A stretch of DNA of 64,000 bases from Medicago truncatula (taxonomy: Eukaryota; Streptophyta; Magnoliopsida; Fabales; Fabaceae), in the NCBI RefSeq assembly GCF_003473485.1, contig NC_053043.1, positions 2,676,001 to 2,740,000 on the forward strand, read 5' to 3'. Below are positions 51,401 through 53,479 of the stretch, piece by piece. Both the position numbers and the translations under genes were made by a program. Positions within the stretch are counted from its first letter, which is position 1. The number at the start of each line of letters is the position of its first letter. The notes below the pieces were generated by a model that saw only the letters and a program-made list of their open reading frames with translations, did no database searches and was not told the DNA's origin.

Positions 51401-53479
51401 ATCAGCTAATGAGACTGCAGTGAGATCGAACAATAGCAACGCGCATCAGATTTTTAGAGCAATTTGGAGTTGGAGAGGACCACATAGAATTCAATGTTTT
51501 CTATGGAAACTTAACCATTCTTCTCTTCTTAGTTCTTACTAATGTTACTCGGGTTAGAAGGAAAATGGGTCAGTCTGAAGAGTGTCCTTTATGCAATTTA
51601 GGTAGTGAAAGTTTCCTTCATATATTTAAGTTAAACAAGATCATGTTACCTATTAGTTTAATAAATGATTATAAGTGAGCAAATAATAAAGAAAACATGA
51701 AGAATCCATAGATACCTGAATGTTTTGAAGCCCATGACCATAAGAAATAGGTACAAGTAGCAAAAATAATTGCTCCCACTACCACTGTTGATATGATGAT
51801 TTTTCTAACATTTCTCTTCCCTTTTGTATCTATAGCTGTTAACATAATTTAGATACCAATATAATTATTTTCCTAGAACTATACTTCTATAATAATAATA
51901 ATAATTAATAAATTCACTACACACAAAAAATGAGAAAAATTAGCTATTAGCTATGGCCTGTGGACTATGCATACTCACAAAGTTCTGAATAAGCTTGGCG
52001 TATGTAAAGATCGGTGCCTGCACTTGAAAACCTGACTATGTCAATTAAATTACCACTCCAAGTCAAGCACTGAATTCCATCATCAAATGCGTAAGCCGTG
52101 CAATTACAATTATTCAAGCACTCAGCTCTACATGCATTAACAGAAAGATATGACTGTTGCACAAAATCTGGTACTTTTGTCGTCTCGAGTTTCACAAAAT
52201 CATCTCCTTTGCCACCTAACGCACTCCCATTATATTTCACCCTCTCACATTGTAGGGATGCCCTTCTCACACACCCACTACTCCAATTCTGTTTATTCCA
52301 TTCGTCTACATTTTTTGGCTCAAAACCTTCTAAACATGTGCATATTGGCAAATTTTTCAAATCGCAACTTCCATTAGGACCACAATAACCATAAATGTCA
52401 CATTCATTTTGTTGAGGAACATTCGTCCCAACTTGATACCTATTGATCCATGAAGTGTAAACCAGCTTGCCTTCAGAACTCACCACAAGGGTTCCAAAAT
52501 CAGAACTATTTAGTAGTGTAAACATAAGCTCAACAACATTTCCATTATCTTTCCTTGCAATGCTGAATCCATTTAGATATCCAGAAGTATACAATGAACG
52601 GCTTGGTAAACCAATAAACACTTGACCATTCCATGGACCTGAGCGCCAGTAAGGTTTTGTTTGGTTCCATACAAACACTTCAGGAGCGTTGAGACGCTCG
52701 AGGCTAAAAGAGAAGTTTCCATAAGCTGGATCTGAAGGAGTTTTCCAAGAAGTGAGTTTTACTTTTTCCCCTGTTTTTTGGTTGGTGCTAATTGTCATAT
52801 TTAGGAGGACTGCATCAGATGGATGTTTGAAACTCTCCCATATTATCTTGCCTGTTATTACAGATATAATTATTTAATAGTATTGTTTGTGATTAATTAG
52901 TTTTTTTGGTAACAAAGAGGGTCTAAGCCCAATAAGTTAGTTTAATAGCGTATTCTCTATATATATGAATCATGCATTCTAATATGATGTAATGTAAACA
53001 TGCATTCTCAGTAATCAATAAGATTTCTATTTTACTTTCTAATTAATTATATTTCTAGTACCTGTAGTGTCTTCCTGCAAGACGAGGTTTCCAGTATTTT
53101 GAATATAAGCTGTGACATTAAAATTTGATGCAAAATTGGAGACATTTGAGGACCATATAACATGTTTTTGTCCATTCAGTACTACAAGGTTTGTGTTGTC
53201 ATCAGACATGGTGATAACCCCAGAAGAATCTTGTAGTGGTTTTTCTCTATTGGCTACCCATATTATGTTGGATTGATTGAGATACCAGATTCCTACGTAG
53301 CGATTTGTTGTGTTCATTGGGCTGAAGAATCCAAGCTTGAATGCATCATCATTTGAGCTTATAGTTTCAGAATCTTTGATCAATTTAGAAGATGTAATTG
53401 TGTACATAGAAGCACTACCAATTTTGATCATGTAAAGGATTAAAAGAGTGAATAAAATATGTAACATGTTTAGATTCAT
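48498..53479 (-). CDS. Gene 8: G-type lectin S-receptor-like Ser/Thr kinase with split lectin exon
   Basis: Predicted 837-aa receptor kinase with eight exons: 53479-53062, 52851-51979, 51835-51716, 50537-50335, 50261-50051, 49377-49140, 49044-48897, 48800-48498. The first two together equal the single exon 1 of genes 1-7; the 210-bp intron between them has inverted ends and lies between ACAGG repeats. Domains: signal peptide, bulb-lectin, S-locus glycoprotein/EGF-like ([14 protein letters not shown]), PAN, helix in exon 3. Kinase motifs intact: [10 protein letters not shown], Lys550, HRDLKPSN with Asp647, DFG at 665, GYMSPEYA. The intron at 50538-51715 contains a LINE fragment. The last exon starts TWK instead of AWK, shared only with gene 9, and the last ~0.93 kb is nearly identical to gene 9. 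Confidence 0.92.
50600..51643 (+). mobile_element. Degenerate LINE fragment in a gene 8 intron
   Basis: Translated on the plus strand, broken frames give reverse-transcriptase C-terminal phrases ([24 protein letters not shown], then [11 protein letters not shown] and FGGLGLRSM) followed by the zinc-knuckle-like RVT region ([19 protein letters not shown]). These are typical of plant L1-type LINEs. Stops and frame changes are frequent. Both ends are truncated and no target duplication or poly(A) was seen. It lies antisense to gene 8 and replaces the sequence present in the same intron of gene 9. Confidence 0.75.
52851..53065 (-). mobile_element. Intron of gene 8 made of a small inverted-repeat element
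   Basis: On the coding strand the junctions read ACT[ACAGG]TACTAGAAATATAATT ... AATTATATCTGTAATA[ACAGG]CAAG. The 5-bp ACAGG occurs once in the uninterrupted gene 6 (ACTACAGGCAAC). The inner ends are inverted (TACTAGAAATATAATT against TATTACAGATATAATT, 13 of 16). Splicing after ACAG on each side removes exactly the element (205 bp) plus one duplication and restores the frame. Confidence 0.65.

Follow-up and report, generated by a model that had tools for sequence, protein, structure and literature searches.

A lectin receptor kinase intron of Medicago truncatula probably made by an antisense LTR-type insertion, with related introner-like introns in unrelated genes

The origin of spliceosomal introns is an old open question, and the documented plant cases are few and isolated. 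Maize Ds is said to have been described by Giroux in 1994 as an intron-making element. Introners are homologous introns found in many genes, with target duplications of 3-9 bp, splice sites derived wholly or partly from the duplication and a mostly unchanged coding sequence (PMC9860276). In the parts of the introner survey of Gozashti et al. (2022) that we could draw on, none is reported from land plants and most families are tied to DNA transposition (PMC9860276). Insertions of the copia element ONSEN in Arabidopsis genes have been found to be spliced out as an intron, and the authors suggest that the LTRs hold the splice sites; in the available portion of that paper these are new laboratory insertions of full-length elements, with one exonic case (PMC12112155). 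A review of intron origins, as excerpted, lists introns from transposon insertion in Zea and Oryza and also describes intron gain by tandem duplication (PMC3443670). Miniature LTR retrotransposons of the TRIM and SMART types are small, make 5-bp duplications and are often located within genes, and the accessible descriptions place them mostly in introns or show them altering gene structure (PMC4717578, PMC3281118). Recurrent LTR-derived introns in Medicago were not reported in the top-ranked openly licensed literature that we searched.

The window analysed here is a stretch of 64,000 nucleotides (C2:2676001-2740000), and the genome searched comprises 430 Mb in 42 contigs. The intron lies among clustered genes for S-domain (G-type lectin) receptor kinases. 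The lectin/S/PAN region of genes 1-7 is in each case one unbroken match. In the same region of gene 8 (51968..53479, minus strand) a GT-AG intron of 210 bp (52852..53061, minus strand) separates the exons 53479-53062 and 52851-51968, exact to the base as a sequence-only reading of this DNA had placed it. The spliced frame has 434 codons, and Pfam finds B_lectin, S_locus_glycop and PAN_2 in the spliced protein; if the intron were retained, a stop would follow 7 codons past the exon end. The predicted junctions read ACAG followed by GTACTAGA at the donor and CTGTAATAACAG followed by GC at the acceptor. The inserted element, 205 bp of LTR-like DNA in antisense (52856..53060, minus strand), lies between two copies of the target duplication ACAGG on the minus strand. 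The final G of the first copy (53061..53065) opens the donor GT and the AG of the second (52851..52855) is the acceptor, which confirms the ACAGG-element-ACAGG layout proposed earlier. The ends of the element are inverted repeats matching at 13 of 16 positions, the same value as originally given; the end sequences quoted for gene 8, TATTAGAAATAT, are in fact those of gene 9, and gene 8 has TACTAGAAATAT. With the match anchored at the ends, 20,000 dinucleotide shuffles of the element gave no case as good, and 20,861 other window pieces gave one. A 5-bp direct repeat combined with inverted ends of at least 13/16, 150-260 bp apart, is present at three places in the 64 kb, two of which are the introns of genes 8 and 9. 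These intron ends are poorly explained by chance. The third place, at 40469-40625 with the 5-bp repeat AAATA and 13/16 inverted ends, is probably a chance occurrence.

The new intron had been ascribed to gene 8, where it is indeed present, but it is not private to that gene, being also found in genes 9 and 10. In the lectin/S/PAN region of gene 9 (57361..58914, minus strand) an intron of 222 bp (58242..58463) occupies the same position and has the same ACAGG duplication (58463..58467 and 58241..58245) around an element of 217 bp (58246..58462), all on the minus strand. Here the inverted ends match at 26/30 positions, a value reached by no shuffle and by no other window piece, and intron retention would give an early stop. 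The third carrier, gene 10, was located outside the window at about C2:2755.7 kb by a DNA search with the gene 9 element; its intron is 211 bp long and its element has inverted ends over 57 bp at 79%. Exact duplications and GT-AG boundaries are present in all three genes. A 20-base end of the gene 10 element (up to 4 mismatches) occurs six times in 214 kb round the cluster, and these six are both ends of the introns in genes 8, 9 and 10. Open frames starting near the site have 301-302 codons in genes 8, 9 and 10, and 449 and 443 codons in genes 6 and 7. As a separate observation, a 957-bp stretch upstream of and at the gene starts is 98.2% identical between the gene 8 region (47500-53900) and the gene 9 region (54000-59600), the neighbouring stretches being 82-83% identical, which suggests recent gene conversion between the two regions.

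Searching the genome for other copies with such ends and 5-bp duplications was successful, all genome-wide counts being lower bounds. Related elements read as introns in ten further genes at no fewer than 11 further independent sites; adding the lectin kinases brings the total to at least 12 independent sites, distributed over 11 genes or gene groups. The 5-bp duplication is exact at 8 of the 11 further sites (9/12 with the lectin kinases); the three sites without it are those in WEB, UGT and the C1 subtilase. Removal of the intron restores an open frame at all 12 sites, with 140-488 codons at the 11 further ones, several of these lengths being limited by the extent of the stretch examined. 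More specifically, a subtilase gene on C7 contains two such introns, one of 168 bp with the duplication GGTAA and another, upstream, of 116 bp with ATAGG, and removing both gives 488 codons. A 158-bp intron flanked by CAGGT is present in a gene that we take to be a WAK-like kinase (358 codons, Pfam kinase), and one of 165 bp flanked by TCAGG in a gene that is presumably MCTP (369 codons, Pfam C2 and PRT_C). ACAGG is the duplication in an LRR kinase gene on C8 (140 bp, 451 codons; tandem copy 143 bp, 285 codons), in a Ca-ATPase gene (152 bp, 249 codons, placed between MIT and GDN of the protein; C6 copy 121 bp, 260 codons), in a LIN-like E3 ligase gene (91 bp, 249 codons) and in a pectinesterase gene (L110/L061, C3:2.593 Mb; 625 bp with a repeated inner segment, 239 codons). 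The flanks read ATAGG/ACAGG in a WEB family gene (164 bp, 445 codons) and CCAGG/CTAGG in the UGT gene (79 bp, 140 codons). In the C1 subtilase gene the LTR is at the 5' end of a 417-bp intron (334 codons); this intron and the 625-bp one of pectinesterase are longer than one LTR.

The subtilases, the WAK-like kinase, MCTP (PRT_C 1-156 of 156), the Ca-ATPase, WEB, pectinesterase and the gene 8 lectin domain each have a Pfam match that spans the junction of the joined product. For the LRR kinase the junction falls between the LRR and kinase domains, and for LIN just past the ARM_LIN match. The UGT piece has no Pfam match and aligns gapless at the junction to UDP-glycosyltransferase 73C1 (E 1e-7); the Ca-ATPase is likewise ungapped there against Ca-transporting ATPase 8. 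In three groups (genes 8/9/10, the two LRR kinases and the two Ca-ATPases) the intron has been kept through gene duplication. We infer that all these introns are spliced.

Twelve introns were compared with each other: those of genes 8, 9 and 10, the second C7 subtilase intron, and those of the WAK-like kinase (cut two bases off), WEB, the two LRR kinases, MCTP, the two Ca-ATPases and LIN. The introns of pectinesterase, UGT and the C1 subtilase and the first C7 subtilase intron stood outside this comparison. The core introns are homologous, with a maximum of 128 bits (LRR kinase versus MCTP) against at most 34.6 bits for 199 control pieces from the window; the WEB intron is weaker, its best score being 41 bits. 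A donor-side pattern (up to 3 mismatches) gave at least 11 matches and none in the reversed control, and 11 of 11 read as donors of such introns. It is important to note that this pattern contains AGG and therefore selects the target type, not the coding position. Orientation was assessed with 17 copies that have both ends placed, the flanks being joined on each strand. For 7 of the 17 the frame stayed open for 95 or more codons both before and after the join, all with the LTR antisense to the gene and none in sense. Outside this both-strand test were most of the weak end-pattern matches, namely L042-L045, L047, L054, L056-L060, L063, L064 and L068-L070; L103 was joined off-frame in it and scored low there, and its exact join was determined separately. 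The antisense bias might reflect that an LTR in sense would bring its own poly(A) signal. The antisense LTR end reads TATTA, and therefore a target ending in G gives a G followed by T; where the duplication is GGTAA or CAGGT, it contains the whole donor GT. The antisense LTR start reads ..TTTATCTCTAATA, and a YTNAY motif precedes the intron end by 13-37 bases in 11 of the 12 introns, the one in gene 8 being the exception.

In total 49 dispersed places were examined and 12 of them counted as intron copies. The 25-base end of gene 10 (up to 3 mismatches) has at least 17 matches genome-wide versus 2 for the reversed control, five of them being ends of the introns in genes 8/9/10, and a degenerate form has at least 41 versus 6. 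Copies L046 and L049 contain a unit of 140-152 bp, TATTAG...TAATA, with a TATA-like box, and then TGGCACCAGAGG or TGGTATCACAAC; in L085 the unit ends ..TAACA ahead of TGGTATCAAAGCC. The sequence adjoining the LTR end in these three copies resembles a primer-binding site and has 1-3 mismatches to what we take to be the tRNA-Met primer-site motif, on which we base the reading of their layout as a copia LTR. It is absent from the solo copies, as expected. Of 50 primer-site junctions 13 have TAATA before TGG, the others end differently and one (L085) is a known family copy; as LTR evidence these junctions give weak support. Most copies have the ends TATTAG..TAATA, L085 and L055 end in ..CA, and the TG...CA ends of Ty1/copia are not what the copies show. 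The 5-bp duplication is exact at the aligned ends of 6 of 23 copies (L051, L055, L062, L067, L079, L082), L055 and L067 sitting in non-coding DNA; a 5-bp repeat at L069 was left uncounted due to its unreliable alignment. A complete two-LTR element with a coding region (gag-pol) was looked for and not found, and a copia RNase H-like stretch was noticed, by eye only, upstream of the C8 match. The inserted element is most likely a solo LTR belonging to a Ty1/copia-like family that has unusual TATTAG...TAATA ends.

Several candidates were set aside. L046 and L085 (C1:42.34 and 42.36 Mb, ABC-transporter-like by eye) and L066 (C7:52.39 Mb, polygalacturonase-like by eye) seem to be inside longer pre-existing introns and were not counted; all three appear antisense by eye. 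Also uncounted are L095-L099, L102 and L104-L108, which in the gene-sense frames are not flanked on both sides by a coding frame, some having been read on the other strand as well. L048, L050, L052 and L053 seemed to match the end pattern by chance.

How the window element is connected to this family is less straightforward. The introns of genes 9 and 10 have their last 26-37 bp in common with the core introns, at scores of 36-41 bits that barely exceed the 34.6 bits of the control, and the gene 8 intron matches, among the introns compared, those of genes 9 and 10 only. Like the core family, the window element has a 5-bp duplication and an AGG-type target, ACAGG. Its interior matches LTR-like DNA on C8 and C1 (77-85%), and that of the gene 8 element matches L044 (85% over 46 bp). 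Unlike the dispersed copies, it has ends that form an inverted repeat. The window element would then be a relative and not a typical member; its family membership is less certain, and that it is a rearranged LTR is our own reading. The main rival to this reading is that it represents a separate inverted-repeat DNA transposon (MITE) making a 5-bp duplication, with the LTR-type introns as a parallel story. We regard this as rather unlikely. The long inverted ends in genes 9 and 10 and the shortness of the segment shared with the core introns speak for it, but a multi-copy MITE with paired ends was looked for in 26 dispersed relatives and not found: a partner end of at least 14/16 with a duplication is seen in none of them, the best being 13/16 without one, and paired inverted ends are confined to the three lectin-kinase introns. 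The LTR-like interior also speaks against a MITE, as do the end sequence, duplication length and AGG-type target common to the window element and the LTR-type introns. Of the earlier proposal, intron gain through a small transposon with inverted-repeat ends, the insertion of a mobile element is supported and its structure recurs at 11 or more further independent sites, while an LTR origin suits the element better than that of an inverted-repeat DNA transposon. For the gene 8 site, the best reading is that a mobile element inserted and that its target duplication made the splice sites.

It could also be that the genes are pseudogenes broken by insertions and that nothing is spliced. Such gene families contain many pseudogenes, and retention would indeed put stops into genes 8 and 9. 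This explanation is improbable all the same: the frame carries on over the join at 12 of 12 sites, dN/dS is 0.39-0.48 in all pairs of genes 6-10, and introns are kept through duplications in three gene groups.

Polarity at the lectin kinase site was read from genes and relatives that have no intron there. The uninterrupted sequence attributed to gene 6 was located as the empty site ACTACAGGCAAC (41851..41862, minus strand). The matching place in gene 7, also intronless (46879..46899, minus strand), has six bases fewer than gene 6, and the difference falls precisely on the insertion point; it may be a deletion or an excision scar. The outgroup sample consisted of 15 stretches out of at least 133 protein-search matches. 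Twelve of these, on C7, C4 and C8, align cleanly and are uninterrupted, so an empty site is found in relatives and the check for an outgroup intron returned none among the 12 cleanly aligning ones. As to the other three, the alignment of L023 passes the site with stops and a gap, that of L024 goes through it weakly, and L037, with no coding match upstream of the site, says nothing on polarity. Outgroups L029 and L034 read ACA ACA GG at the site. The protein search also gave three identically scoring matches about 16.5 kb apart on C7 (26386700, 26403227 and 26419758), a pattern that a recent tandem triplication would give. The gene tree is ((6,7),(8,(9,10))), with 100/100 for both groups and 62/36 for the pairing of 9 and 10; dS is 0.18-0.25 within genes 8/9/10 and 0.34-0.42 between them and genes 6/7. 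Because genes 6 and 7 and the 12 cleanly aligning relatives are unbroken at the site, the lectin kinase intron was gained once, before the duplications that gave genes 8, 9 and 10, and is older than gene 8. Intron loss is common in plants, but that the intron is ancestral and was lost from genes 6, 7 and others we find very improbable, since the 12 relatives that align through the site without an intron are spread over three chromosomes and the exact duplication and transposon ends mark an insertion. That the introns arose from filler DNA at double-strand breaks or from tandem AGGT duplication is hardly credible: both routes would also leave short direct repeats at the ends, but in a window search the introns of genes 8 and 9 gave no match to their flanking exons, and the same sequence recurs as an intron in unrelated genes.

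We consider it highly likely that an antisense solo LTR-type insertion made the lectin kinase intron and that the same family behaves like an introner at 12 sites. In this scenario the ancestor of genes 8, 9 and 10, an S-domain receptor kinase gene, would have received a short LTR-type retroelement in antisense within ACTACAGGCAA, and integration would have duplicated the 5-bp target ACAGG. The donor GT would be composed of the last G of the first duplication copy and the first T of the element, the acceptor would be the AG of the second copy, and the antisense LTR start would supply an AT-rich 3' region with branch-point-like motifs. Roles would thereby be divided, the duplication giving the splice-site letters and the LTR the intron body, and splicing would restore the old reading frame. 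The same event would have been repeated at each of 12 independent sites, which fall in 11 genes or gene groups, and due to this recurrence the family can be said to behave like an introner.

If this is true, one plant genome contains a series of intron gains in which the mechanism is visible, in the form of a dozen related introns whose duplications are mostly intact. Such a series makes it testable which exon insertions survive, why they are antisense and whether the ends of LTRs are preadapted to serve as splice signals. The gene 8 site and its relatives point to a repeatable route of intron gain in plants. More broadly, we think it probable that a land plant has a new type of introner, an LTR retrotransposon whose antisense solo LTRs, with a 5-bp duplication of mostly AGG-type targets, gave rise to at least 12 spliceosomal introns spread over unrelated genes, one subtilase gene having two.

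On present sequence data the family resembles introners in its behaviour, and it does so in a land plant, a group for which the large survey reported none; if our reading is correct, that statement would have to be amended. In line with introners as the available text characterises them, there are homologous introns in several unrelated genes, target duplications, splice sites from the duplication and a restored frame; the differences from the surveyed families are the land plant host, the LTR-like ends and the small copy number of at least 12 independent sites (PMC9860276). As with ONSEN, a plant copia-type element in a gene reads as an intron, here by inference, but the Medicago copies are old, short and LTR-like, recurrent, and kept through gene duplications, which sets them apart from the insertions in the portion of that work considered (PMC12112155). 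The Zea and Oryza cases are also plant introns from mobile elements, in the review excerpt isolated ones and from other element types (PMC3443670). Small LTR elements with 5-bp duplications are shared with TRIM and SMART, whereas the recurrent and precise intron creation proposed here is not described in the TRIM and SMART texts at hand (PMC4717578, PMC3281118).
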